The notes below the pieces were generated by a model, which was not told the DNA's origin, did not search any database, and saw only the letters and a list, made by a program, of their open reading frames with translations. Positions 31,971 to 47,243 of a DNA stretch of 64,000 nt are shown piece after piece. Origin of the DNA: Alphaproteobacteria bacterium (GTDB taxonomy: Bacteria; Pseudomonadota; Alphaproteobacteria; Sphingomonadales; Sphingomonadaceae); assembly GCA_030430365.1 (NCBI GenBank), contig JAUIFP010000006.1, positions 1 to 64,000 on the forward strand, written 5' to 3'. How positions within the stretch are numbered: the first letter of the stretch is position 1; each line of letters starts with the position of its first letter. The position numbers and the translations under genes are program-made.

Positions 31971-33458
31971 CTATTTGAGGGCCGAGCGGTTGAGCTTTTC
32001 GCGGCTCACCCAGGTTCCGTGGACCTGGCTTCTGAGAGCCATTCCCGTTTTCACCTTTGCGACGGGGCCTGCAGCGACGTCGCCGGCATCGATGATCCAG
32101 AGCTGCGAGGTATAGTCGCCGGGTATCTGCCGGGCAGGATCGGGATCCTTCGGCAGATCGACTACACTCAGCAGCCAGCCATCGTGCCCGCGCGAGCGTG
32201 ACGGGACATGGGCCGGTTCGCTAATCCCGGCGCCGGGCGGCAGGCCAAGCATTTCCAGATGGCCGTTGCCCGGTTCGATCCGCAGCAGGCAATTGAAGTT
32301 GGCACCCACAGGCCCGCCGGGCATGGGTGGGCCGCCTTCGGGGTTCATGCTCAGATACCAGGCATGGCTGTAGGGCCGGCCCTGATCCTTGTCGGCCAGC
32401 CGCGGCAGATCGCCGGTGGGACCCAGGGGGCGCTCCGAAATTTCCGGATTTTCCTGCGACAGGTCGATCGTCCAGCGGGTTAGCGCGCCTTCCACTTCCG
32501 GTTGCGGAATATCGATGCCGCCGGCCTCCCGCATGAAGGGGAAGGCATTGGTGCTTGTCAGACACAGATCGATATGCAGCAGATCCCCGTCGTCGAAGGC
32601 ATTGACTTCATGGAACACGGAAACGCCGACTGGCCCCTTGATCCACCTGATCTCCTCGACCTTGCCGTAGCGCGGCATGACGCCCACCCAGCTTTCCAGA
32701 TCCTGCACATGCGCCCAATGTTCACCGCCGGATTCGATCCTCTCGAGGTCCGCGATGGTCGGAAAGATCGGGAAGACCGCGTATTTCTCCGTGATCACGA
32801 AATCGTGGATGGTCGAGAGATAGGGCTGTTCGAACCATTGTTCGGAAACCAGCTTCCCGTCCTTGTCGGCAATGCAATAGGCGACGTTCGGATCGCACAG
32901 GCCGCCAGCCTCGTAGCCGAAGAAGAACATCTCGCCGGTTTCGGCATCGATCCGCGGATGCGCCGTGAAGGTGGCCGATTTCAGCTTTCCGCCGAATGTC
33001 CACTTGCCGATGGTTTCCAGCGTATGCGGATTGATTTCGTGGCCGAGCCCGTCTTCCTTTGTCATGAACAGGCGGTTCGCGTGCCAGACGGGGGTCGTAT
33101 TGGCGACGGTGCGGTCCACGCCCTTGACGCTGGGATCGTCGGTAAACGGATTGCGGTAGCGCCCGAACAGGGCGCGCCGTGCTTCCTTTTCCGCCTTGTA
33201 GCGGTCGGTCTCGACATATCGGATGTCGAAATCGACGGCGCCGTCCTGAAAATGGAAGCGGCTGATCATGCCGTCGGCATTCAGGGCGATATCGTCTTCG
33301 AACATGGGCGGGTGCGCATTGTCGGGCACGGCCCGGAAAAAGGCGCCGTCGATGTCGTCGGGAATCTCTCCTTCAACTTCAAGATCGCGAAGCGTTATTT
33401 CCATCCGCCGTGGAGTGTTCGATCCGATAAAATGGATCGTTTGCGGAAAGGCTTCCAT
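31971..33458 (-). CDS. Lignostilbene dioxygenase-type carotenoid oxygenase
   Basis: 495 aa, GGGAG 8 nt before ATG. Seven-bladed propeller non-haem iron enzyme that cleaves the central C=C of hydroxylated stilbenes to two aromatic aldehydes. The four iron-binding histidines are at H167 (TAHPRID), H218 (STIHDF), H283 (FHEVNA) and H480 (VHGTW). Tyr101 and Lys134 (MTKEDG) fall at the positions I recall as contacting the substrate phenol in lignostilbene dioxygenase LsdA, supporting stilbene rather than carotenoid substrates. No signal peptide. Divergent from marR-NTF2, with a TAAC-N4-GTTA element in its putative promoter. Confidence 0.9.
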   Translation of the reverse strand: MEAFPQTIHFIGSNTPRRMEITLRDLEVEGEIPDDIDGAFFRAVPDNAHPPMFEDDIALNADGMISRFHFQDGAVDFDIRYVETDRYKAEKEARRALFGRYRNPFTDDPSVKGVDRTVANTTPVWHANRLFMTKEDGLGHEINPHTLETIGKWTFGGKLKSATFTAHPRIDAETGEMFFFGYEAGGLCDPNVAYCIADKDGKLVSEQWFEQPYLSTIHDFVITEKYAVFPIFPTIADLERIESGGEHWAHVQDLESWVGVMPRYGKVEEIRWIKGPVGVSVFHEVNAFDDGDLLHIDLCLTSTNAFPFMREAGGIDIPQPEVEGALTRWTIDLSQENPEISERPLGPTGDLPRLADKDQGRPYSHAWYLSMNPEGGPPMPGGPVGANFNCLLRIEPGNGHLEMLGLPPGAGISEPAHVPSRSRGHDGWLLSVVDLPKDPDPARQIPGDYTSQLWIIDAGDVAAGPVAKVKTGMALRSQVHGTWVSREKLNRSALK

Positions 33459-33492
33459 GCCCGAATTCTCCCAAATACGTTTGCACAGATCT

Positions 33493-33504
33493 TAACGAGT
33501 GTTA
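33493..33504. promoter_or_regulatory. TAAC-N4-GTTA element, copy 2
   Basis: TAACGAGTGTTA (reverse strand TAACACTCGTTA). On the minus strand TTGGCA, 16 bp, TTAAGA forms a plausible promoter for the dioxygenase, with the element covering the spacer and -10. It is in the gap between the dioxygenase and marR starts. Confidence 0.65.
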
Positions 33505-33592
33505 CGAAAGCTGCCAAGAAAGTTTGGCCGGATCATGGGATATAGCGAGCCGTGGCAGCGAGCAGACGGAATCCGGGAAGATGGGGAGCGCG

Positions 33593-34129
33593 ATGCAGGA
33601 CGATTTGATCCACGAAGGCCCGGATACATCCGCCGATCAGGCACGCATGCTGCACGATCTGCTGAAACTGGCCAATCGCCTGACGGCGCCCTTTTCCACC
33701 CATCTCGCCGATCGCTACCGGATCAGCCTGAATGAATTCCGCCTGCTGATGACGATTGGCCGGATTGGCGCGACCGCCAGCCACGAAGTGGCGGAAATCA
33801 CCGGCGTCAATGTCATGAGCGTGAGCCGGGCCGTTTCAACGCTCGAGCGCAACGGGCGCATCCATGTCGCGCTCGATCCCGCGAACCGCAGGCGCAAGGT
33901 GCTCACCCTGACAGCGGAAGGGCAGCGGCTCTATGAGATCATGCGTCCGCAGACCCTGACGGTTGCCGAGTTTCTTTTCAGCGAGCTGTCCGAGACCGAT
34001 GTTCATGCGCTCGACCGGATCCTCGCCCAATTGATCGATACGCTGGAAGCGCGCGACGAGAATGGCAATTCCGTGTTTCTTGAGGCAACGAAGCCGGGCG
34101 AAGACGCCGTGGTGGCGCAGGGAAAATAA
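33593..34129 (+). CDS. MarR family transcriptional regulator (1)
   Basis: 178 aa from ATG behind GGGGAG; ATGs further upstream in frame are less well placed. Winged helix: NEFRLLMTIGRIGATASHEVAEITGVNVMSVSRAVSTLERNGRIHVALDPANRRRKVLTLTAEG, the classic MarR core with the DPANRRRK wing. MarR proteins typically repress catabolic genes and are released by phenolic ligands. As one of the TAAC-N4-GTTA elements lies in its own promoter region, it is the leading candidate to bind them. The stop is followed 3 bp later by an NTF2-like gene. Confidence 0.9.
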   Translation: MQDDLIHEGPDTSADQARMLHDLLKLANRLTAPFSTHLADRYRISLNEFRLLMTIGRIGATASHEVAEITGVNVMSVSRAVSTLERNGRIHVALDPANRRRKVLTLTAEGQRLYEIMRPQTLTVAEFLFSELSETDVHALDRILAQLIDTLEARDENGNSVFLEATKPGEDAVVAQGK

Positions 34130-34132
34130 GCG

Positions 34133-34561
34133 ATGGATCTCGAGGAACGCCAGCAGGTGGAGCAGCAATGCACTCGCCTGATCAACCACTATGCCAATCT
34201 CAACGATGCGCAGGATTGGGAAGCGGTTGCCCAGCTTTATACAGAGGATGCCCATTTCCAGCGGCCCAGCGGCGGCGATCCGGTGATCGGGCGCGAGGCA
34301 ATTCTGGAAAGTTTCCTCGCCCGTGCCCCGCGCACGCAGCGCCATGTCATTGCCAATGCGGTGGTGGATGCCGAAGGGCCTGCCACCGCGCGTGCCTTCA
34401 GCGCCATCCTGCTGTTTCACGGCGATGCGGCAAAGGATGGCGAACTTCCGGCGATGGCGCCCAATTCGCCGCTGGTCGGCTGGTATCGGGACCTGATCGT
34501 GCTCACGCCGGAGGGGTGGCGTTTCCAGCAGCGGATCGGCGGGCTGGACTTCAGGCCGTGA
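34133..34561 (+). CDS. SnoaL/NTF2-like protein (2 of 4)
   Basis: 142 aa, starting 3 bp behind marR. SnoaL_4-like NTF2 fold: VEQQCTRLINHYANLNDAQDWEAVAQLYTEDAHFQRPSGG, GREAILESFLARAP-TQRHVIAN and WRFQQRIGGLDFRP. In sphingomonads an NTF2-fold enzyme (LdpA) turns a beta-1 diarylpropane diol into lignostilbene with loss of formaldehyde; the dioxygenase next door makes this gene a candidate for similar chemistry, but that is inference. Its last 11 bp overlap the MFS gene end on the other strand. Confidence 0.82.
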   Translation: MDLEERQQVEQQCTRLINHYANLNDAQDWEAVAQLYTEDAHFQRPSGGDPVIGREAILESFLARAPRTQRHVIANAVVDAEGPATARAFSAILLFHGDAAKDGELPAMAPNSPLVGWYRDLIVLTPEGWRFQQRIGGLDFRP

Positions 34562-35774
34562 TCTCCTCGCCTGCCGGCTGAGCGCGCTTCACTGCTAGCG
34601 CGGCGGGCAGCCCCAGACAGATCAGCGCGCAGAGCGCGGCCGGTAGAGCGGCGGCCATCAGAAACATCGACGGCCCGGTCCCGGCCGCCAGCATGGCCGA
34701 TCCCACCATCGGCCCGGAAATGGCGCCGATCCGCGCGATCAGCACGCCCATGCCGATGGCCGATGAAAGCAGCTGCCGGGGGAACAGGGCGGGGGTGAGC
34801 GCGGGAATCGCCATGGCTGCACCGGCGCTGCCGCCCACGCCGATCAGCAGCAGCACGGTCCAGGCCGCCGGCGCCGGCCCGATCAAGCCGATCGCAAGGA
34901 AGCTGGCCGCCACGATGGCGAACAGCCCCACCATGGTGGGGCCTGGCTTCCACCGGTCGATCAGCACGCTGGCAGATAGGCCCATTGCAAACCCTGCGCC
35001 TTGCACCAGCCCGCTGATCCGGGCGGCCTGGTCCAGCGTGAATCCGGCATCGGGCAGCACGCTGGGCATCCACTGGCTGAGCAGATAGAGATTCAAGGCA
35101 TTGAGCGTCAGCGCCGCGGCCATGATCGCGAAAGGCAGGTTCCACGGGCTGCGCAGCAATTCCAGCTGCGGGGCCTTGCTGCGCGGTGCCCCGGCCGGCG
35201 GAGCAGGCCTTGCGGATTGCGCGGGCAGGACGGCCCACAGCGCCAGCGCAAGCAGCACGGCAAGAATTCCCGGAGTGAGGAACAGCCCGGCCCAGCCGCC
35301 CAGCGCAACCACTTCGGGCGCCGTCAGGCCGGCGCCCATCGCGCCCAGCGGGATTCCCGCGGAAACCAGCGTCATCACCGTGGCGCGCTTGTTCTCGCTC
35401 GCCAGTTCGGCCGAAAGCGCCGTGCAATTGGGCAGGCAGGCGCCCAGGCTCGCGCCGGTCAGCAAGCGCCACAGGGCGAATTCCGCGATGCTGCCGGAAG
35501 AGGCCGTCGCGAATGTCGTCAACGCCGCGGCAAGGCAGCTGAAGACGATCAGCGGCTTGCGCCCGATCCGGTCGCCCAGCGGAGCTATCAGCGCTGCACC
35601 GCCGCCCAGGCCGACCAGCACGGCGGAAAACGCAATCCCGAACTGCGCGGGCGAAAGGCCGAGTTCCCTTTGGAGATGGGGAACCGCCAGCGGCATCGCA
35701 TTGAGATCGAAGCCGTCCATCACGAAGACGCCCGCGAGCAGCACCAGCGCCAGCAATCTGCGGCCTTGGCTCAT
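34551..35774 (-). CDS. MFS permease, aromatic acid:H+ symporter (AAHS)-like
   Basis: 407 aa, twelve predicted helices. The DGFDLNAM segment in helix 1 is the AAHS hallmark (as in PcaK), and the loop 2-3 motif is PLGDRIGRKPLI. It would import a phenolic or benzoate-type acid. Divergent from the flavocytochrome operon, with a TAAC-N4-GTTA element between them. The C-terminus overlaps the upstream NTF2 gene end by 11 bp. Confidence 0.85.
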   Translation of the reverse strand: MSQGRRLLALVLLAGVFVMDGFDLNAMPLAVPHLQRELGLSPAQFGIAFSAVLVGLGGGAALIAPLGDRIGRKPLIVFSCLAAALTTFATASSGSIAEFALWRLLTGASLGACLPNCTALSAELASENKRATVMTLVSAGIPLGAMGAGLTAPEVVALGGWAGLFLTPGILAVLLALALWAVLPAQSARPAPPAGAPRSKAPQLELLRSPWNLPFAIMAAALTLNALNLYLLSQWMPSVLPDAGFTLDQAARISGLVQGAGFAMGLSASVLIDRWKPGPTMVGLFAIVAASFLAIGLIGPAPAAWTVLLLIGVGGSAGAAMAIPALTPALFPRQLLSSAIGMGVLIARIGAISGPMVGSAMLAAGTGPSMFLMAAALPAALCALICLGLPAALAVKRAQPAGEEITA

Positions 35775-35877
35775 TGCCGTGCCTGCAATTTAACGCTTGT
35801 ACCGCGCCGGACCATCGCACATCCCCCACTCGGCGGGTTCGCCCCGCGCTTGACTCTGATACACGCTAGAAGAAAAG

Positions 35878-35889
35878 TAACGCTCGTTA
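35878..35889. promoter_or_regulatory. TAAC-N4-GTTA element, copy 3
   Basis: TAACGCTCGTTA in the 164-bp gap between the MFS permease and the flavocytochrome operon, 49 bp before the flavoprotein ATG. Positioned to affect both. Confidence 0.65.
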
Positions 35890-35938
35890 AAGTTGGTGGC
35901 ATGAACAAGCACCGCCGACAGGGGGAGAGAATTGAATA

Positions 35939-37516
35939 ATGGCTGACACGCCCCTTCCGCCCGGATTCGACGAATACAAGATGGCACGGGCGCGGCGGGC
36001 TTTCGAAAGCGCGCTGGGCCATCGCAAGGTCTTCTTCGAAGAGCTCGACCGGACCGGTTATCAGGACAAGTTCGCAGTCGACGATGCGCTGCATCACCCG
36101 GCCGGGGCGATCGCCCCGGAATCGGTGGAGGAAGTGCAGGCGGCTGTCCGGATCGCCAATCAGTATCTGCTGCCGCTCTGGCCGATCAGCCGCGGCAAGA
36201 ATCTGGGCTATGGCGCCAGTGCGCCGCTGCTGGCGGGCAGCGTGGTGCTCGACATGTCGCGGATGAAGAAGATCGAGTTCGACGAGCATCTGGGCACGGT
36301 GGTCGTGGAACCCGGCGTCGGCTTTTACGATCTCTACGATTATCTCCAGGCCAACGATCTGCCTTTCTGGCTCTCCACACCGGGAAACAGCTGGGGCTCG
36401 GTGATGGGCAACGCGCTGGACCGGGGCGTGGGCTACACGCCCTATGGCGAGCACACGAAGCAGATCTGCGGCATGGAAGTGGTGCTGCCCGATGGCGATC
36501 TGGTCCGCACCGGCATGGGTGCGTTTGCAGGGTCCGACACCTGGCAGGCCTATCCCTATGGCTACGGCCCGGCCTGGGATCAGATGTTCGTCCAGTCCAA
36601 TTTCGGCATCGTCACCAAGATGGGCCTGTGGCTGATGCCGGAGCCGGAAAGCCTGATGGGCATGGATGTCGAATTCGACCGCCCGGAAGACCTCAAGGCG
36701 ATGATCGACACGATCGCCCCGCTTCGGCGGGAGCGGGTGCTGACCCAGAGCCCCAGCATCGGCAACTGGCTGCGCGCCGCCGCCGTGCTGACCACGCGGG
36801 ACGAATGGACGGACAAGCCCGGCGCGCTGGGCGAGGATGTGATCGACAAGATCCGCAAGACCTTCAACATCGGCTGGTGGGGCGTCTCGCTGAGGCTTTA
36901 CGGGCGCGAGGAGGTCAACAAGGCCGCCTACAAGATCCTGGAAAAGGCGATGAACGATATCGATCCCATGCTGATCAAGCCGACCAGCTGGGTGAAGGGG
37001 GAACCGCTGGAACATACCGGCTGGACCGGCACGCCCATGACTTTCCCGATGCAGAATGTGAACTGGTATGGCGGGCGCGGCGGCCATATCGGCTTTTCGC
37101 CCATCATTCCGCAAGACGGGACCAAGGCGCTGGAGCAGTTCCGGCGCACCTATGCCCGCTATCAGGAATACGGGATGGATTATCAGGGCAGCTTCGCCTT
37201 CGGCGAACGGCACATGATCAACGTCAATGCGATGATCTTCGACAAGGACGATCCGGAAATGATGAAGAAGGTCGATCCCTTCTTCCGCACGCTGGTGCAG
37301 GACGCGAAGGAGCAAGGCTACGGCGAGTACCGCACCCATCTGGATTACATGGACCTGGTTGCCGATAGCTATGACTTCAATGGCGGTGCGCTGGCGCGGC
37401 TGAACGGCAAGGTGAAGGACGCGCTCGATCCCAATGGTATCCTGGCCCCGGGCAAGAGCGGTATCTGGCCGGAGCGCTTGCGGGGATCGAATGCGGGCGG
37501 GGGGCGCAGATCGTGA
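35939..37516 (+). CDS. VAO-family flavocytochrome, flavoprotein subunit
   Basis: 525 aa, GGGGGAGAG before ATG. FAD-dependent 4-alkylphenol oxidase/hydroxylase family (vanillyl-alcohol oxidase, p-cresol methylhydroxylase, eugenol and pinoresinol hydroxylases). Visible: FAD-binding SRGKNLGYG with phenol-binding Tyr91, His383 in GGHIGFSP at the place of the FAD-linking His of VAO, and Tyr464-Arg465 in GEYRTH that bind the phenolate. The VAO catalytic Asp170 (VPDLGGGS) is Gly149 here (TPGNSWGS). No signal peptide is visible although the partner cytochrome is exported. The adjacent cytochrome implies electron transfer to the respiratory chain rather than O2. Confidence 0.9.
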   Translation: MADTPLPPGFDEYKMARARRAFESALGHRKVFFEELDRTGYQDKFAVDDALHHPAGAIAPESVEEVQAAVRIANQYLLPLWPISRGKNLGYGASAPLLAGSVVLDMSRMKKIEFDEHLGTVVVEPGVGFYDLYDYLQANDLPFWLSTPGNSWGSVMGNALDRGVGYTPYGEHTKQICGMEVVLPDGDLVRTGMGAFAGSDTWQAYPYGYGPAWDQMFVQSNFGIVTKMGLWLMPEPESLMGMDVEFDRPEDLKAMIDTIAPLRRERVLTQSPSIGNWLRAAAVLTTRDEWTDKPGALGEDVIDKIRKTFNIGWWGVSLRLYGREEVNKAAYKILEKAMNDIDPMLIKPTSWVKGEPLEHTGWTGTPMTFPMQNVNWYGGRGGHIGFSPIIPQDGTKALEQFRRTYARYQEYGMDYQGSFAFGERHMINVNAMIFDKDDPEMMKKVDPFFRTLVQDAKEQGYGEYRTHLDYMDLVADSYDFNGGALARLNGKVKDALDPNGILAPGKSGIWPERLRGSNAGGGRRS

Positions 37517-37920
37517 TGCGCGCGCCTGTTCTTGCAGCGGTGCTGCTGGCGCTATGTTCCTGCAGCGGTTCCGAAAGGGCAAGTGCGCCGGAAGGCGAAG
37601 GCGGCGGACCGCCGGCATTTCCCAAGCCTGTCACCGTGTCCGCCCGGCCGGATGCCAGTGTGCGCGAGAAGCTCTATCTTGAACATTGTGCGATGTGCCA
37701 CGGCCCCGGCGGGATGGGGCAAGGCCTGCTCGCCCGCCGTATGGATCAGCCCGATCTGGAAAAGCGCGCGGATCTGACGGCGGAATATGTTATCGCTGCG
37801 GTGCGCACGGGCATGGGCAATATGCCGCCGGTTACGCGCGGCGAATTGAGCGACGAGCAATTGGAAGAAATCGCGCAATATCTCGAAGCCGGCCCGCATG
37901 GAGAGGGAGACGGGGCATGA
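37516..37920 (+). CDS. Cytochrome c subunit of the flavocytochrome
   Basis: 134 aa; ATG overlaps the flavoprotein stop (a GTG sits one codon earlier). Lipoprotein-like signal (LLALCSCSGS), one CAMCH haem site about 50 residues on, and the axial Met probably in RTGMGNMPPV. Small class I cytochrome c, matching the c-type partner of p-cresol methylhydroxylase-like enzymes. It would take electrons from the FAD subunit. Coupled to the next gene by ATGA. Confidence 0.9.
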   Translation: MRAPVLAAVLLALCSCSGSERASAPEGEGGGPPAFPKPVTVSARPDASVREKLYLEHCAMCHGPGGMGQGLLARRMDQPDLEKRADLTAEYVIAAVRTGMGNMPPVTRGELSDEQLEEIAQYLEAGPHGEGDGA

Positions 37921-38468
37921 TCGAAACGACACGCAGGGCCGCGCTGGGAGGCGCGATGTTCGGGGTGCTCGCCGTGCCGACGATCTCCGGCCTGGCGACA
38001 TGGCGCTGGAACCATGGGGACCGGCGCGTGCTGCTGCACGATCCCGCGCTCGAGGCCGGGCGGCGATTTGCCGCCGCGGGCGAAGCCAAAGGCATTGCGC
38101 CGCAAGCGATCGAGGGTGACCGGATCCGCCTGGCGCGCAGCGTGCTGGCGGCCGCTCCCGCCGTGATCGTGGGCGTCAGCCGCCATGCCGATCTGCTGCT
38201 GATCGCCGATGCCGCGCGGGAAGCCGGCTATGTCACGGCGGCCCGCCTGGAATCGCATGTCGGGCGCTGCACCGGGGCGGAATGCATGCCGGGCTGGAAT
38301 GCGCTGGCGAGGGCAGGCCGCGCGGCCGGGGCGGACTGGGCCGAAGTGCTGGCCGCCTTCGCTGCGGATCCGCGCGGAGCGGTGCCAAGCGCCTCCACCG
38401 GCAACTGGTTCGGCGGCAAGGATGGCGGGCTGGTGCTGGGCTGGGTATTGGCCAAACGCATCGGCTAA
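37917..38468 (+). CDS. Unknown exported protein coupled to the flavocytochrome
   Basis: 183 aa from the ATG inside the cytochrome stop (ATGA). N-terminus TTRRAALGGAMFGVLAVPTISGLA resembles a twin-arginine signal or anchor. The rest is Ala-rich and alpha/beta, with ADLLLIADAAREAGY and two cysteines (GRCTGAECMPGW), and ends VLAKRIG. I recognise no family. Translational coupling argues for a dedicated role: a third subunit, assembly factor or FAD/haem maturation helper. No catalytic motif is evident. Confidence 0.7.
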   Translation: MIETTRRAALGGAMFGVLAVPTISGLATWRWNHGDRRVLLHDPALEAGRRFAAAGEAKGIAPQAIEGDRIRLARSVLAAAPAVIVGVSRHADLLLIADAAREAGYVTAARLESHVGRCTGAECMPGWNALARAGRAAGADWAEVLAAFAADPRGAVPSASTGNWFGGKDGGLVLGWVLAKRIG

Positions 38469-38470
38469 CG

Positions 38471-38487
38471 TTCACCTATCTGGTGAA
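38471..38487. other. Inverted repeat behind the flavocytochrome operon
   Basis: TTCACC-TATCT-GGTGAA, a perfect 6-bp inverted repeat directly after the stop at 38468. No T-run follows, so it is a weak terminator at best; it could also be a protein site. Confidence 0.4.
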
Positions 38488-38501
38488 ATGCCTTGACATC
38501 G

Positions 38502-38512
38502 TAACGCTGTTA
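38502..38512. promoter_or_regulatory. TAAC-N3-GTTA variant element, copy 4, in a convergent gap
   Basis: TAACGCTGTTA, one base shorter in the spacer than the other copies, 3 bp behind a consensus -35 TTGACA. It lies between two gene ends (flavocytochrome operon and tannase), where no start is seen. It may be a relic of a lost gene or promoter. Confidence 0.5.
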
Positions 38513-38602
38513 TGGCACAAATACAGAAGCTGGCGATAATGCGATTCGCAGGGCAGCGGTGCTGTGGGCGCGCAGCATCCAGGCCCCGCTATTTGGGCGC
38601 CA

Positions 38603-40177
38603 TCACTCAGGCATTTTGCAGGTGAAATTCTCCGCAAGGCGGGTGTCGCCTTCGCCCGAATAGGCAGGAAAAAGCGGGTAGGGGCAAAGCGGTCGGCTCA
38701 TCTCTTCGCGGTCCGGTTCCGGCGGGAAGCCGGGCAAGGCGGGGACCTCGGTCGGGCGTGTGGCGATGATGCGACCTGGGGCTTTGCCGCTGGTCGCCCA
38801 GGCATCGATCACTCCCAGCGTATCGAATTCGGATGGGCCTTCGCCGCCCGCGCAATGCTGCATGCCCGGGGCCATGAACAGGCGCAGCTGGCTCTGCACT
38901 TCCGCCTCCGGCAATGCGCGGTAGAGATCGCTGTAGAAATTGACTGTGTTGACCGCGGGGATCAGCCCGTCATTCCAGCCATGGCTGAGCAGCAGCTTGC
39001 CGCCCCGGGCGAAGAATGTGCTGAGCCCGTCGGCAGGCACGTCGAGCATCCCGCTGCCATAGGCGCGCCCATCGGCCAGCGCTTCGCCGAAATCCATCAG
39101 CTGCCAGTGCCAGCCGAAATGTTCGCCATAGACCAGCAGGCGGTAGTAATCATGCGCGACGGAGAAGGGCCGCCCGCTTGTGAGCAGGGCAAGCTGCTCT
39201 TCGGCGCCGCGCGGCCAGCCGGGCAGCAGTAGGCGGCCGTCTTCGGCGCGCACGCCGTCATAGATGGCGCGCATCGCCTCGATATGCGGGGCGATCAGGC
39301 AGGCACCGGACTGGCCATCCTGGCAAAGCATTTCGCCGGGATCGAAATTGCAGGCACCGGGGCGCGAAACCACGCCGTCTTCCAGCCCGTCCAGTCCATC
39401 GCAATCCGCCAGCACGGCCCGATGTATCGTGCCCAGCACGCTGCCGGTCAGCCCGCCTTCGGGGTCCTGTTCGCTGACCCAGTTGGCCCACATGGATTGC
39501 AGCATCAGGTCCGTCATCGGATTGGCCGGTGCGAGCGCGGAGATCGCGTCGTAATCTTCCGGATGGCGATAGGCGGACATCAGGCCCTGCCGGCCGCCGG
39601 TGGAGCAGGAATCCCAGAGCGAGAGGCTGGGCCCTTCGCCGTAATAATCCGCGATGGCCGCCTTGGCGGTCACGGTCATTAAATGGACGGCGCGGTGGCC
39701 GAAATCGATCAATTTCTCCGGATGGCCGATGGCCCAGTCGGCAGTCATCCCGCTGCCCGTATGCCCGGTATCGGTGGTAGCGACGGCATAGCCGCGCGAA
39801 AGCGGCTCCACGAGCTGCGAATAGCTGAGCTGGCCGGCCCACACGCCATTGCCCAACCCGACAAACTTGCCGTTCCAGTCTCTCGCCGGCATCCAGACTT
39901 CGACCTTGATGCTGGAATCGGGGGTAGGGGTGAGCGTCGCCTGCACGCGGCAGAAGGCGTCCAGGCTGTTGAAATGCGTCGCGCCGACACCGGGGGGCAG
40001 CATGACGCCTTCCGGCAGTTCGAAGGCGCCCGGCGCGACCCATTCGGCGGAGGTGACCGCGCCGTCTTCAAGCGAGAGGTCTATAAGCTCCGGGCATTCC
40101 CTGGCGGAAGCGGAACCGCCTGCGGAAAGGGCAAGCACGGCGGCCGATGCGGCCAATACATTGCGCCAGGCCTTCAT
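38603..40177 (-). CDS. Tannase/feruloyl esterase family protein
   Basis: 524 aa with a signal peptide (about 1-26, cleaved near ASA-RE). Alpha/beta hydrolase of the tannase family with the CS-D-HC motif: Cys191-Ser192 in SCSTGGRQG, Asp in HGWNDGLIP and His-Cys in GMQHCAGG, the Cys pair bridging the catalytic residues. Hydrolyses esters of hydroxycinnamic or gallic acid in the periplasm or outside. Second gene after an NTF2-like gene (25-bp gap) in a minus-strand unit whose promoter region carries a TAAC-N4-GTTA element. Confidence 0.9.
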   Translation of the reverse strand: MKAWRNVLAASAAVLALSAGGSASARECPELIDLSLEDGAVTSAEWVAPGAFELPEGVMLPPGVGATHFNSLDAFCRVQATLTPTPDSSIKVEVWMPARDWNGKFVGLGNGVWAGQLSYSQLVEPLSRGYAVATTDTGHTGSGMTADWAIGHPEKLIDFGHRAVHLMTVTAKAAIADYYGEGPSLSLWDSCSTGGRQGLMSAYRHPEDYDAISALAPANPMTDLMLQSMWANWVSEQDPEGGLTGSVLGTIHRAVLADCDGLDGLEDGVVSRPGACNFDPGEMLCQDGQSGACLIAPHIEAMRAIYDGVRAEDGRLLLPGWPRGAEEQLALLTSGRPFSVAHDYYRLLVYGEHFGWHWQLMDFGEALADGRAYGSGMLDVPADGLSTFFARGGKLLLSHGWNDGLIPAVNTVNFYSDLYRALPEAEVQSQLRLFMAPGMQHCAGGEGPSEFDTLGVIDAWATSGKAPGRIIATRPTEVPALPGFPPEPDREEMSRPLCPYPLFPAYSGEGDTRLAENFTCKMPE

Positions 40178-40202
40178 TGCGCCTGCTTGTCCATGGCTGC
40201 GT

Positions 40203-40697
40203 CTAAGTCCTCTTCTTCAGCGAGTCGGGGCGCTTCCTGGGAACCCATTGGCCGTGGCCGGGAAAGTTCTTCAGCACTTCGCCATCCCATAGGCGCACAA
40301 TCCGGCGCTTGAAACGCCATTGTCCGTCGTCGCATTTCACGGCCACATCGTCATACCAGCCGGTGAAGCGCAGAAGGTAAGGCGGCTCGCCTTCACATTC
40401 GGTTACGAAGGCGAAGCTCTTCATCGCCACGCTGCCATCCGCCTGCGGCAGATACTTGGTCTGCGTCACATGGTGCTGGCGCCCTGGAAAGCCGGGGGCG
40501 CTGGCATAGTGGCGCATCAATCCGCGAATGCCTTCATGTCCTTCCCAGATGTCGGGGTCTTCGAACACTTCCTCGCTCATCAGGCAGTCCGGGGTGAAAC
40601 AGGCGACCAGCCCATCCTCGTCGCCCGTGTCCAGCGCCCAGCCGTAATCCGCGAACAGATCCATCAGCGCCAGCCGGTCTTCGATTGCCAGTGTCAT
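40203..40697 (-). CDS. SnoaL/NTF2-like protein (3 of 4)
   Basis: 164 aa from ATG (MTLAIEDRL); an ATG four codons earlier (40709) is possible. SnoaL_4/scytalone-dehydratase-like NTF2 fold: LALMDLFADYGWALDTGDEDGLVACFTPDCLM, EGHEGIRGLMRHYAS-PGFPGRQHHVTQ, and WRFKRRIVRLWDGEVLKNF. The HH in the central strand and the Tyr/Asp of the first helix fit the usual catalytic pocket. It resembles the type that includes LdpA-like lyases, but assignment needs a tree. Leads the unit with the tannase gene. Confidence 0.82.
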   Translation of the reverse strand: MTLAIEDRLALMDLFADYGWALDTGDEDGLVACFTPDCLMSEEVFEDPDIWEGHEGIRGLMRHYASAPGFPGRQHHVTQTKYLPQADGSVAMKSFAFVTECEGEPPYLLRFTGWYDDVAVKCDDGQWRFKRRIVRLWDGEVLKNFPGHGQWVPRKRPDSLKKRT

Positions 40698-40734
40698 TGC
40701 CCCGTCCATCCTCTTTCCATTATTGCCACAACCG

Positions 40735-40746
40735 TAACACTTGTTA
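40735..40746. promoter_or_regulatory. TAAC-N4-GTTA element, copy 5
   Basis: TAACACTTGTTA in the gap between the NTF2-tannase unit and the NmrA-PQQ-ALDH operon. On the plus strand TTGCCA, 16 bp, TATTGT gives a plausible promoter with the element across spacer and -10, the same geometry as copies 1 and 2. Confidence 0.65.
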
Positions 40747-40822
40747 TTGTCGCCAGCAACAAAGGCAGCGTCCGCAAGGCAGGCTGCAAAAGGGCCGTAA
40801 AAAGGGCCCGGGAAGAGGATTC

Positions 40823-41737
40823 ATGGGCAAGATCATCGTCACCGGCGCGTCCGGACAATTCGGCAATGCGGCGGCGAAACTGCTGCTGCAATCCGTCCCC
40901 GGCGAAGATTTGATCCTGCTGTCCCGCACGCCGGAAAAGCTGGCCGAATTCGAAGCCAGCGGCGCCCAGATCCGCTGCGCCGATTTCGACGATCCATTGA
41001 GCCTGCCTTCCGCGATGGAAGGGGGGGAGCGGATGCTGCTGATTTCCACCGCGCGGGTCGGCACCAGGGTGGGGCAGCACACCAATGCCGCCCAGGCTGC
41101 CGTGGCGGCGGGCGTGCGGCAGATCGCCTATACCTCGCTGTTCGGTGTGGACGCGCCGGGCAATCCGGCGATCGTGAAGAACGATCATCTCGCCACCGAA
41201 ATCGCCATTCGCGAAACGGGGGCGGAATACACGTTCCTGCGTGACAGCCAGTATGCCGAAGCGGTTGCCGCGGCGATGGCGATCCCCGCGCTCCAGCATG
41301 GCGCGAAGCCGGACAATTGCGGGGATGGGAAAGTCGGGTTCGTCAGCCGGGACGATTGCGTGGCGGTCGCCGCCGGCGTGCTGACGCAGGACGGGCACGG
41401 CAACCGGGCCTATCCGCTTACGGGGCCGGAGGCACTTTCGATCCCGCAGGCCATGGCGATGGTAAGCGAAATGGCGGGCAAGCCGATCCAGGTCCAGCAG
41501 GTCAGCGACGAAGAGATGTTCGCCTATTTCGATTCGCTGGGGGTACCGCGCCATGCATCGGACATCGTGCCGGAAGGGCCGATCCCCTGGTCCAGCGAAG
41601 ACATGGTGACTTTCGGTGCGTCGATCCGCGAAGGCTATTTCGACGGGGTGACTGATTGCGTCGAACGGATAACGGGCAAGGCGCCGCGCAGCTTGCGCTC
41701 TGTGCTCGAGCAATATCAGGGAGAATGGCCGGTATGA
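40823..41737 (+). CDS. NmrA-like NAD(P)-binding reductase (atypical SDR)
   Basis: 304 aa from ATG behind GAAGAGG; the longer open frame is ignored. N-terminal Rossmann motif VTGASGQFGNAAAKLLL, then LLISTARVGTRVGQH, AYTSLFGVDAPGN and LRDSQYAEAVAAAM, the pattern of quinone-oxidoreductase-2-like NmrA proteins and of isoflavone/pinoresinol-lariciresinol reductase relatives. Lacks YxxxK. The reduction of an aryl-ether or quinone-methide intermediate is possible. Its stop overlaps the PQQ dehydrogenase start (ATGA). Confidence 0.85.
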   Translation: MGKIIVTGASGQFGNAAAKLLLQSVPGEDLILLSRTPEKLAEFEASGAQIRCADFDDPLSLPSAMEGGERMLLISTARVGTRVGQHTNAAQAAVAAGVRQIAYTSLFGVDAPGNPAIVKNDHLATEIAIRETGAEYTFLRDSQYAEAVAAAMAIPALQHGAKPDNCGDGKVGFVSRDDCVAVAAGVLTQDGHGNRAYPLTGPEALSIPQAMAMVSEMAGKPIQVQQVSDEEMFAYFDSLGVPRHASDIVPEGPIPWSSEDMVTFGASIREGYFDGVTDCVERITGKAPRSLRSVLEQYQGEWPV

Positions 41738-43944
41738 CGGTTTTGCGCAGCATATTGGCAGCGGGCGCGCTGATCTGCCTGGCCGCCTGTTCGAAGGGCG
41801 ATAACGCGTTCGGCGTCGATAGCTCGGTCTATGGGGCGGGGGACGATTGGAACAATCCGGGCGGCGACTGGGCGGAAAGCCATTTCTCCCGCCTGGAAGA
41901 TATCGGCCCCGGCAATGCCGCCCAGCTCGGCCTGGCGTGGGAATACGATCTGGGCACCGCGCGCGTGCAGGAAGCGACGCCCGTGGTGATCGATGGGGTG
42001 ATGTACACTTCGGGCAATCTCGGGCGGGTCTATGCACTCGATGCCGCCAGCGGGGCGGAACTGTGGACCTTCTCCCCCGAAGTGGACATGCAATATAACC
42101 GCTATTCCTGCTGCGATCAGGCCAATCGCGGCGTAGCCGTGGCGGGGGACCAGGTCTTCGTCGCCACGCTGGACGGCTGGCTCTATGCGCTGGATGCGAA
42201 GACCGGCGAAGTCGCCTGGAAGGCTGACACCTTCCCCGATCGCAGCCGCGCCTATGCGATCACCGGCGCACCGGAAATTGCCGGCGATCTGGTGGTGATC
42301 GGCAATGGCGGCGCCGAATACGATACGCGCGGCTATGTCACCGCCTATGACATGCGCACGGGCGAGCAGGCCTGGCGCTTCAACACCGTGCCTCGCGATC
42401 CCGCCGAAGGCCCGCAGGAGAGCGAAGCGCTGGAAGCCGCGCTGGACAGCTGGAGCGAGAATACGCGCTGGGACATTGGCGGGGGCGGCACCGTCTGGGA
42501 TGCGATCACCTACGATCCCGAATTCGATCAGGTGATCATCGGCACCGGCAATGGCGCACCGCATCCCCAGGCGCTGCGTTCGGCCAGCGGCGGGGACAAT
42601 CTCTATCTCAGCTCGCTGGTCGCGATCGACCGCGAAAGCGGCAAGATGAACTGGCATTTCCAGGAAACGCCGGGCGACAATTGGGACTTTACCGCCAGCC
42701 AGCCGATGATCCTGGCCGATGTCGAAGTGGAAGGCGCAGCGCACAAGGCGATCCTGCATGCGCCCAAGAACGGGTTCCTTTTCGTGGTGGACCGGGAGAC
42801 GGGCAAACCGCTGGCCGTCAATGCAATGGTCCGCATGAACTGGGCCACGGGCTGGGATAACGAAGCGGGGCGGCCGATCCTGAGCCCTGAGACTTCCGAT
42901 TATTCCACCGGGCCCAAGATCGTGTTCCCGGCCTTCCCTGGCGCGCGCAATTGGTATCCCCCGGCCTACGACCCCGGACGGAATCTCTATTTCGCGTCCT
43001 TCCTGGATATGGGCAATCTGCTGTTCCTGCCGCCTGGGCTGGAAAAGGCGCCGCACAGGGCCAAGGCGCTGAATGCCGGGCCGGCCATCCTCTTCAGCCC
43101 GGATCTGGAGGCCTTGCTGCCCAGCCTGCCGCCGCCATTGCAGGAAGCGGCCAAGGCGCTGGACCACTGGCAATGGGTGAAGGAAAAGCCATTCGTTTCT
43201 CAGCTGCGCGCCGTCGATCCGGTAACGGGCCAGACCAAATGGGCCGCCGATCTGGAAGGCTGGCAGGATCGGGGCGGCGTGATGGCGACGCGATCCGGGC
43301 TGGTCGTCCACGGCTCGCTTTCTGGCAAGCTGATCCTGCGCGATGCGGAAAGCGGCAGGATCGTGAAGCAGATCGAAACCGGCAGCACCATCATGGCCGC
43401 GCCTATGTCCTACCGGGTGAACGGTGTGCAATATATCGCGGTGCAGACGGGCTGGGGCGGCGGCGGCTGGGGCTTCGTGCCCTCTTATGCCGCAGCCTAT
43501 TCCAAGGGGAATGCCAACCGCCTGCTGGTCTTCAAGCTGGGCGGCGGCGAAGTGCCGATCCCCGAGGACCTGCCGCCGCTGCAGCCTGCCCCGCAGCCGC
43601 CGGAGCAGCTGGAAGGCGTGACGGCACAAACCATCGAAAGAGGCTCCGCCCTGTTCGCAACGACTTGCGCGATCTGCCATTCCAATCAGCCGCGCGCGCC
43701 GCTGCCCGATCTGCGCCGGATGGCGCCCGGAACGCACCGCGCCTTCGATCAGATCGTGCTCGAAGGGTTGCTGCTGCCCAATGGCATGCCGCGATTCGAC
43801 GATCTGCTCGATGAGCAGGAGACGAAAGCGATCCACGCCTTCCTGATCGATCAGCAAAAGGCTTTGCGGGCCCGCGAGTTAGAGCTCCAGGCGGCCGGGA
43901 AACCCCTCGATTCGCAGAGTCTCACTGTTCTTTCGGACATATGA
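41734..43944 (+). CDS. PQQ-dependent quinohaemoprotein alcohol dehydrogenase
   Basis: 736 aa with a lipoprotein-type signal (ICLAACSKG). Eight-bladed propeller with repeated W-docking motifs (GRVYALDAASGAELWTF, GWLYALDAKTGEVAWKA), the vicinal disulfide CC (YSCCDQ, about residue 127), PGDNWDFTASQP near the active-site Asp, and a C-terminal cytochrome c domain with CAICHS (about 648). It oxidises primary or benzylic alcohols at the membrane and passes electrons to the respiratory chain. PQQ synthesis genes are not in the window. Confidence 0.93.
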   Translation: MTVLRSILAAGALICLAACSKGDNAFGVDSSVYGAGDDWNNPGGDWAESHFSRLEDIGPGNAAQLGLAWEYDLGTARVQEATPVVIDGVMYTSGNLGRVYALDAASGAELWTFSPEVDMQYNRYSCCDQANRGVAVAGDQVFVATLDGWLYALDAKTGEVAWKADTFPDRSRAYAITGAPEIAGDLVVIGNGGAEYDTRGYVTAYDMRTGEQAWRFNTVPRDPAEGPQESEALEAALDSWSENTRWDIGGGGTVWDAITYDPEFDQVIIGTGNGAPHPQALRSASGGDNLYLSSLVAIDRESGKMNWHFQETPGDNWDFTASQPMILADVEVEGAAHKAILHAPKNGFLFVVDRETGKPLAVNAMVRMNWATGWDNEAGRPILSPETSDYSTGPKIVFPAFPGARNWYPPAYDPGRNLYFASFLDMGNLLFLPPGLEKAPHRAKALNAGPAILFSPDLEALLPSLPPPLQEAAKALDHWQWVKEKPFVSQLRAVDPVTGQTKWAADLEGWQDRGGVMATRSGLVVHGSLSGKLILRDAESGRIVKQIETGSTIMAAPMSYRVNGVQYIAVQTGWGGGGWGFVPSYAAAYSKGNANRLLVFKLGGGEVPIPEDLPPLQPAPQPPEQLEGVTAQTIERGSALFATTCAICHSNQPRAPLPDLRRMAPGTHRAFDQIVLEGLLLPNGMPRFDDLLDEQETKAIHAFLIDQQKALRARELELQAAGKPLDSQSLTVLSDI

Positions 43945-45542: not shown

Positions 45543-47105
45543 CTATCCCTCGCGCCATGCCTTCGGCCAGATCCCCTGCTTGCCCGGGGAGAGAATGCCA
45601 TTGGGATCCAGCACATCCTTGATCGTTTCGGCAAAGCGCCGCTGCGCATTGTCGTTGAAGTCGTAGAGCGCGGCGACCTCGTCCATGAAGTCCAGATGGC
45701 TGCGATATTCGCCATAGCCAAGCTTCGCCGCAGGCTCGAGCATGGCCTTGGTCGCGGCATAGGCCTCCCGCGTCTGGCGCTCGTTCTTGGTGTCGAACAC
45801 CACCAGCGCCACGTGGATCATGCTGCGCTTTCCAACGATGATCGCTGCGGAATAATCCAGCCCGCGCTCATTGAGCACCTTGCGCGTCAAATCGCGGATC
45901 GCGCAGCCATCCTTGCCGGCAATCGGCATGGCGCAGGAAAAGCCGATATGGCCGCCTTCCTCACCGCCATACCAGCGCGTCATCTGGTCTAGCGCCATGG
46001 ACGGTATGCCGGCCTGCACGCGGTGATGCGGATTGTCGAATTCAGGCAGATTGCGGCCGTCGAATTCTTCGAACACAACCGATCCGCCCGGGATCGCGGT
46101 GAACGCCTTTTCGATTTTTGCGCGGTTATGCGCAACGACCGGAGCATCCCCATAGAGCGCGAAACGCATCACCCAGCGCCCGAAGCCGGGGGTGGCCGCG
46201 ATCTTGTCCAGCACTTCCTCAGGAATGGAATCCTCGCCCGTGTACCATTCCTTGCGCTCGCCGAAGGCGCTGGCCGCGCACACGGCATTGATGATCATCG
46301 GCTGGTTGGGGATCGTCCCGTCGATCATCAGCGGGCGCAGGACTTCCAGGAAGCTGCCGAAATGCTCTTCATTGTCGAGCATGAACCAGCCCGGCGCATA
46401 GACTTCCGGCGCGTGGAACAGGCTCACCCCCATCTTGGTGACGATGCCGTAATTGGACTGCGTGAACAGCCCGTCCGGCGTTGGCCCAGCGCTATGCGGA
46501 TAGATCAGCCAGTTATGCGGGTTGGACATGCCCCCCATTCCGGTACGCAGGACATCGCCATTGGCGAGCACCACCTCCATTCCGCAATGCTGGCCGAAAT
46601 GGTCGCCGATGGGGGTGTAGCCCACACCGTGTTCCAGCGCGTTGCCGATCACGCTTCCTCCGCCAAGATCGGGCACCGACATCCACAGCTTCGAACCCGT
46701 CGAGCGCAGATGTTCGTAAAGGTCGAAGAAACGCACGCCCGGTTCGACCAGGGCCATGCAGTTTTCTTCGTCGACTTCCAGCACGCGGTTCATCCGCCGA
46801 AGCGAGACGACGAAGCTGCCCGATACCCGTGGCGCTCCGCCGCCATAGCCCTTGTTGCGGCCCTGGCTGCTGGTCCAGATCGGGGTCTTGTGCCGATTGG
46901 CGATGCGCAGCAGGGCCTGCACTTCCTCCACGCTGCCCGGCAGAAGCACGGCGCCGGGGCTATACCATTCGCCGGGCGGGGCGAAGGGATCGCCGTGATC
47001 GGCCATGCCTTCCGCCTCAGTGAGAACATTGTCCTTGCCAAGCGCGGCTTCCATCTCGCGGATAGCTGCGTCGAGACTGCCCGGCGGCAGTGCGTCCTGG
47101 TTCAT
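45543..47105 (-). CDS. VAO-family flavoprotein oxidase (second copy)
   Basis: 520 aa, GGAGAGG 8 nt before ATG. Same family as the gene at 35939 but closer to VAO/eugenol oxidase: QGRNKGYGGGAPR (phenol Tyr87), VPDLGGGSVIGN with catalytic Asp146 retained, His in GGHIGFSCAMP for covalent FAD, and Tyr-Arg in GEYRSH. No cytochrome gene is adjacent, so it could use O2 or borrow the other cytochrome. Probable substrates are 4-(hydroxy)alkyl- or methoxymethyl-phenols. Behind the secreted NTF2-like gene on the same strand, 138 bp apart. Confidence 0.9.
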   Translation of the reverse strand: MNQDALPPGSLDAAIREMEAALGKDNVLTEAEGMADHGDPFAPPGEWYSPGAVLLPGSVEEVQALLRIANRHKTPIWTSSQGRNKGYGGGAPRVSGSFVVSLRRMNRVLEVDEENCMALVEPGVRFFDLYEHLRSTGSKLWMSVPDLGGGSVIGNALEHGVGYTPIGDHFGQHCGMEVVLANGDVLRTGMGGMSNPHNWLIYPHSAGPTPDGLFTQSNYGIVTKMGVSLFHAPEVYAPGWFMLDNEEHFGSFLEVLRPLMIDGTIPNQPMIINAVCAASAFGERKEWYTGEDSIPEEVLDKIAATPGFGRWVMRFALYGDAPVVAHNRAKIEKAFTAIPGGSVVFEEFDGRNLPEFDNPHHRVQAGIPSMALDQMTRWYGGEEGGHIGFSCAMPIAGKDGCAIRDLTRKVLNERGLDYSAAIIVGKRSMIHVALVVFDTKNERQTREAYAATKAMLEPAAKLGYGEYRSHLDFMDEVAALYDFNDNAQRRFAETIKDVLDPNGILSPGKQGIWPKAWREG

Positions 47106-47243
47106 TGCTGCGCCTCTCCGTCTGTTATGTTTTCGTGGCCCGCCGCCTGTGCGGAAGAGCCGCGCATACTATACACCAGCTCCGCCGGGCCCGTAATGGA
47201 TTTAGAGCATAGCATGGCGCTGTTTGCGCGCCTGTGCAGCCGG

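Follow-up and report, generated by a model that had tools for sequence, protein, structure and literature searches.

The stretch of DNA analysed here (the window, 64,000 nucleotides from a member of the Sphingomonadaceae) carries on its forward strand a flavoprotein gene, a cytochrome c gene and a small third gene, in that order. The features discussed below are:

35939..37516 (+), VAO/PCMH-family flavoprotein subunit, 525 aa, FAD_binding_4 and FAD-oxidase_C domains, no signal peptide
37513..37920 (+), cytochrome c subunit with the haem motif CAMCH; Cytochrome_CBB3, E=1.5e-16 (class I cytochrome domain)
37917..38468 (+), third gene, 183 aa, ATG start; encodes the proposed Tat hitchhiker (export) subunit of the flavoprotein
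37917..38015 (+), twin-arginine signal region (MIETTRRAALGGAMFGVLAVPTISGLA...) of the third protein
38028..38459 (+), mature domain of the third protein, the region behind the signal-free profile; small alpha/beta fold, C-terminal strand with the near-invariant Trp176
38268..38285 (+), CTGAEC (Cys118, Cys123) of the third protein, in an optional insert according to the alignment
45546-47168 (-), second VAO-family flavoprotein, Asp-Leu oxidase signature, no signal peptide and no third-gene relative

The cytochrome gene starts at GTG 37513 or ATG 37516 and overlaps the flavoprotein stop; its own TGA (37918-37920) and the ATG of the third gene share an ATGA overlap. With overlaps at both junctions, the flavoprotein, cytochrome and third genes make up a single, tightly coupled unit, and the coupling of the third gene to the flavocytochrome, claimed in the first-pass annotation, is borne out both by the ATGA overlap and by linked adjacency in other genomes.

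With its two domains and linked cytochrome c, the flavoprotein is a VAO/PCMH-type 4-phenol-oxidising flavocytochrome subunit. The closest structures are VAD, EUGO, VAO and PCMH, and the best PDB relative is the vanillyl-alcohol dehydrogenase (VAD) of Marinicaulis flavus (8s7t series). The flavin N5-site residues are Gly149-Asn150, in place of the Asp/Glu-Leu signature of oxidases, and His383 is of the flavin-linking type. The cytochrome has a signal peptide and is possibly a lipoprotein (LCSC). TatC was found in the window's genome. The second flavoprotein of the window, at 45546-47168, serves as an internal control. An aromatic-degradation cluster surrounds the locus (31971-43944), with an RPE65-type oxygenase, an MFS transporter, SnoaL-like proteins, a tannase/feruloyl esterase and a PQQ-type dehydrogenase-like ORF with a CxxCH motif.

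The third gene is a real gene: homologues with intact frames and 28–66% identity occur in other genomes, mostly adjoining the same two genes, as do the homologues in relatives of the window's genome. The translated N-terminus, MIETTRRAALGG..., is a Tat-type signal, which confirms the earlier description of an exported protein of 183 aa. Single-sequence and profile searches of Pfam, NCBIfam and PDB sequences returned nothing above the cut-off except generic Tat-signal models, and neither the window protein nor any of 52 family members matched an entry of Pfam-A. An AlphaFold model has a confident core at residues 31-110 (block pLDDT 84-98), which forms a small alpha/beta domain; compared with PDB folds and a viral library, it gave no match at E <= 0.001. 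The first reading, which could assign no family, thus still stands: the third protein falls into a previously unrecognised family, outside all described ones.

A search of genome contigs with the single third-protein sequence gave no matches and was replaced by a flavoprotein-based scan; iterated search of the ORFs around flavoprotein loci built a family of 181 ORFs. A hidden Markov model of the mature domain, with the signal removed, regains 177 of the 181, so the likeness does not come from the Tat signal only, an explanation that can be ruled out. Relatives occur in Alpha- and Gammaproteobacteria, in Acidobacteriota and, weakly, in Campylobacterota; members in named records include Sphingobium SYK-6 (L176), Roseomonas, Novosphingobium plasmid pNL1, and gammaproteobacterial and Acidiferrales MAGs. 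The twin arginine (R6-R7) is invariant or nearly so in alignments of 79 and 75 members; the only other near-invariant positions are the C-terminal Trp (W176) and a few core residues (Asp42, Ala52, Gly86). The alignment holds no conserved set of cofactor or catalytic residues. Distances among flavoproteins and distances among their partners are correlated (Mantel rho 0.38, a value reached in 0 of 500 permutations); this establishes co-inheritance and says nothing on contact. On Sphingobium yanoikuyae pF1 (L279) the set of flavoprotein, cytochrome and third gene is present twice, in inverted orientation on either side of an IS6 transposase; the two copies encode identical cytochromes and identical third proteins.

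The classical two-subunit picture of PCMH-type enzymes does not explain how a folded, signal-less flavoprotein gets to a cytochrome in the periplasm. A conserved partner with a Tat signal would supply the explanation and assign a function to a gene whose role has been unknown. For each of 197 distinct flavoproteins we noted whether a partner gene, a cytochrome and a signal of its own were present, and which two residues occupy the flavin N5 site; according to PMC7617285 these residues separate oxidases (Asp/Glu-Leu) from dehydrogenases. Signal classes were assigned by rule, and five were corrected by eye (L124, L126 and L130 to signal; L066 and L204 to none).

All 140 flavoproteins with a partner are without a signal peptide, and none has the oxidase signature Asp-Leu (Gly-Asn in 105, Asp-Pro in 19, others in 16). 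A clade of 12 flavoproteins with Tat signals of their own has cytochromes throughout and Thr-Val at the N5 site, and none of the 12 has a partner. Among the 31 flavoproteins with neither partner, signal nor cytochrome, six of which lie close to the end of their locus, 19 have Asp-Leu and one Asp-Ile; flavoproteins of the oxidase type (Asp-Leu) have neither cytochrome nor partner. At the edge of four loci (L078, L080, L086 and L087) an oxidase-signature second flavoprotein forms a mixed pair with a partner-bearing copy of dehydrogenase type.

A check that does not depend on homology gave a similar division. In loci with enough flank, a small ORF with a Tat-like start was sought within 2.5 kb of the flavoprotein, and was present at 127 of 135 partner loci, at 0/21 loci without cytochrome and partner, and at 0/14 loci with the oxidase signature; it was also seen at 4/12 own-Tat-signal loci and 3/12 cytochrome-only loci. 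Named plasmids with a Tat-type small gene come from Sulfuricurvum, Rhizobium, Roseomonas, Massilia, Paraburkholderia, Sphingobium and Novosphingobium. Every cytochrome-linked plasmid locus that was read has such a gene adjoining, even beyond the reach of the profile (Massilia, Rhizobium, Paraburkholderia, pNL2); at the oxidase locus of a Rhodococcus plasmid none was found adjoining.

Co-occurrence with VAO–cytochrome pairs, the check proposed in the first-pass annotation, was approached through the flavoprotein, with the mature-domain profile run over 401 whole genomes of related bacteria of the family. The profile matches 58 of these, and a VAO/PCMH flavoprotein is found in 62. Genomes with the third-gene domain nearly always have the flavoprotein as well (56/58, against 6/343 of those without the domain; Fisher p~7e-59, a value that takes no account of shared ancestry among the genomes). 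Occurrence is thus largely not sporadic, the two remaining genomes holding a diverged copy alone. Of 86 profile matches, 75 have a listed flavoprotein no more than 3 kb away. Five of the other 11 adjoin flavoprotein copies that were omitted from the first list or lie just beyond the 3-kb limit; the remainder comprises one contig end, one weak chance match and four true orphans, namely G065 and G147 (with rpsA as neighbour in G147) and G278 and G365 (with a TonB receptor as neighbour). Most of the apparent orphans are rejected as such, being sited beside flavoprotein copies unlisted in the first search. The six genomes with a flavoprotein and no third gene are made up of four whose sole copy has no adjoining cytochrome, one with its own Tat signal and one at a contig edge. 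Five of the six fit an export role for the third protein.

Few evolutionary events underlie the complementary pattern, since on the flavoprotein tree the own-Tat clade amounts to one change, as does the oxidase group, which is confined to one clade. Independent-pairs tests on this tree (third gene against oxidase signature or against adjacent cytochrome) were not significant, there being too few changes. About nine loci hold a flavoprotein and a cytochrome with no recognisable adjoining partner or signal (L064, L195, L200, L201, L206, L068, L069, L071 and L073). Four family genomes among them (G147, G065, G256 and G292) have a third-gene copy elsewhere, which makes it possible, judging from gene content, that the third protein acts there in trans. 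At three loci (L084, L090 and L092) the copy is of dehydrogenase type, and no cytochrome or partner lies close to it. G278 and G365 have a diverged third-gene copy and no 4-phenol flavoprotein in the genome, so the domain can also serve elsewhere.

One of the orphan relatives (L249:2905-3297, +) adjoins a ribosomal protein S1 gene; its genome and that of a second (L248:4713-5132, +) have flavoprotein–cytochrome pairs without an adjoining partner. Two diverged members with Tat signals (L228:4950-5552, -; L229:4744-5466, -), from two genomes that have no 4-phenol flavoprotein, lie between an HWE histidine kinase and a TonB-dependent receptor. A TonB-dependent receptor-like ORF in the window (47913 onward, +) resembles the receptor that adjoins the family member in L228.

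The earlier reading of the third gene product as a third subunit or maturation factor finds support: as a partner of cytochrome-dependent VAO/PCMH flavoproteins the gene is both conserved and genetically linked. The data point to a more specific job, that of supplying a Tat export signal to a flavoprotein that has none. Cytochromes c are matured in the periplasm, and the flavoprotein partner must therefore be periplasmic too; since it has no signal and is folded with FAD bound, the small Tat-signal protein linked to it is the obvious candidate for its carrier. We consider it likely that the three genes encode a cytochrome-dependent 4-phenol dehydrogenase in which the third protein is the Tat hitchhiker subunit, ferrying the folded flavoprotein to its periplasmic cytochrome. 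The flavoprotein would fold and bind FAD in the cytoplasm, with no export signal of its own, and would there be bound by the third protein, whose twin-arginine signal would take the folded complex through the inner membrane via the Tat translocase. The cytochrome c would be exported unfolded by Sec and receive its haem in the periplasm, where the flavoprotein would meet it. From sequence we infer the binding, the co-export and the dependence on it for export, and likewise that the third protein may stay on as a lasting subunit. Three features of a hitchhiker carrier are found: the protein is small, with a twin-arginine signal at its N-terminus and a conserved R6-R7 pair; a linked, cofactor-bearing partner without an export signal exists wherever the third gene is present; and the carrier is missing beside all 12 flavoproteins with their own Tat signal and beside all those with the oxidase signature, as expected where the partner exports itself or has no periplasmic role, but this last holds over only two clades.

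Other roles can be imagined for an exported protein encoded beside a flavocytochrome. The third protein might be exported alone and serve the enzyme from the periplasmic side, either by helping in its assembly or as a structural third subunit that joins flavoprotein to cytochrome; some other route would then take the flavoprotein to the periplasm. Tight coupling and co-inheritance of the three genes would be expected on this account as well, and use of the Tat pathway suggests that the third protein folds before export. However, the flavoprotein shows no other export signal, and the own-Tat clade retains its cytochrome yet has no partner, even though docking should be required in that clade too; we regard this explanation as unlikely. 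A sensory or ligand-binding protein for the phenolic substrate is less probable again. The best fold matches do include halves of periplasmic binding proteins, and the diverged copies of G278 and G365 lie, with no flavoprotein, between an HWE histidine kinase and a TonB receptor; but none of the fold matches is significant, conserved residues that could form a pocket are lacking in the family, a few core positions aside, and the third gene tracks the cytochrome-dependent enzyme type while skipping oxidases that act on similar phenols.

The two cysteines singled out in the first-pass annotation invite the further idea that the third protein serves the cytochrome as a factor for redox reactions, haem handling or disulfide formation. 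They are present in the window protein (Cys118 and Cys123), closely spaced there and in its near relatives, but the family as a whole does not share them: the surrounding insert is optional, absent from short members, and missing in most members even beside the same type of cytochrome. A role built on these cysteines is very improbable and we reject it. Least credible of all is that the third gene is unrelated and sits in the operon by chance; two genomes do have the domain and no flavoprotein, but chance would hardly produce the co-occurrence seen in the 401 genomes, or adjacency across distant clades, gene orders and strands.

The nearest functional counterpart of the proposed hitchhiker is the gamma (small) subunit of FAD-glucose, gluconate 2- and fructose dehydrogenases, which is likewise small and equipped with a Tat signal, its gene accompanying those of a signal-less FAD subunit and a cytochrome c (PMC6719666). 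In FAD-glucose dehydrogenase this hitchhiker is reported to be required if the catalytic subunit is to fold and be secreted, and its cysteines, like those of the third protein, are reported as not conserved (PMC6719666). The gamma subunit is described as five helices, whereas the model of the third protein is alpha/beta. The clients differ too, the gamma subunit serving a GMC-type and the third protein a VAO/PCMH-type flavoprotein. Neither the window protein nor any of the 52 members searched matched the Gluconate 2-dehydrogenase subunit 3 family (PF13618) in Pfam-A. The best explanation is that the third protein is functionally like the gamma subunit but unrelated to it. PaoABC provides a further precedent for Tat hitchhiking; in it and in HybO-HybC of E. 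coli one subunit with a Tat signal carries signal-less partners, but that carrier is a redox subunit with Fe-S clusters (PMC4273604), whereas the third protein has no conserved cofactor ligands.

For the enzyme itself the closest solved relative is VAD (PDB 8s7 series; PMC7617285), whose His387 aligns with His383 of the window flavoprotein and whose N5 residues are Asp150-Pro151, as against Gly149-Asn150 here. The window's Asn150 is the equivalent of the VAD variant P151N, which is still a dehydrogenase (PMC7617285). An endogenous cytochrome c is the suspected physiological acceptor of VAD, and the available portion of its description, unlike the window locus, includes no third protein (PMC7617285).

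In Sulfuricurvum, Massilia and two gammaproteobacterial genomes (L259 and L272) the order is cytochrome, small Tat protein, flavoprotein, as opposed to flavoprotein, cytochrome, third gene in the window. A Tat gene between the cytochrome and flavoprotein of PCMH-type loci occupies the place of pchX in Pseudomonas putida, where the p-cresol methylhydroxylase operon runs pchA-C-X-F and PchX is not known to have an assigned function. One hhalign comparison of the third-gene family with a profile of genes in the PchX position gave E=4e-5, a probability of 70% and a colinear alignment over 84 columns; comparisons with single sequences from that position were marginal (mature-domain E 0.001-0.04). 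These values, obtained with PchX-position genes from outside P. putida, are suggestive of such genes being remote members of the family. In the papers searched, nothing on PchX or on PCMH export was found. As a tentative extension, which we put forward with less than even confidence, PCMH-, VAD- and pinoresinol-hydroxylase-like cytochrome-linked 4-phenol dehydrogenases might all be three-component enzymes, their signal-less flavoproteins exported by one fast-evolving family of Tat hitchhikers that includes PchX, a system that the oxidases of the superfamily never joined or have left.

If the hitchhiker reading is true, then a second, unrelated protein family joins the mechanism known for FAD-glucose dehydrogenase, and a co-expression partner is predicted for making lignin-related enzymes together with the electron acceptor that they use in nature. 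Whether the third gene is present or absent also offers a simple genomic marker that tells dehydrogenases from oxidases among VAO-family sequences. The own-Tat flavoproteins (L123, L124, L126-L130, L132 and L134-L137), with their cytochrome and Thr-Val, resemble nsVAO, whose N5 residues in PMC7617285 are T181/V182, in a numbering about 28 higher than that of EUGH; because of this resemblance nsVAO may be an exported cytochrome-linked dehydrogenase and not an oxidase.
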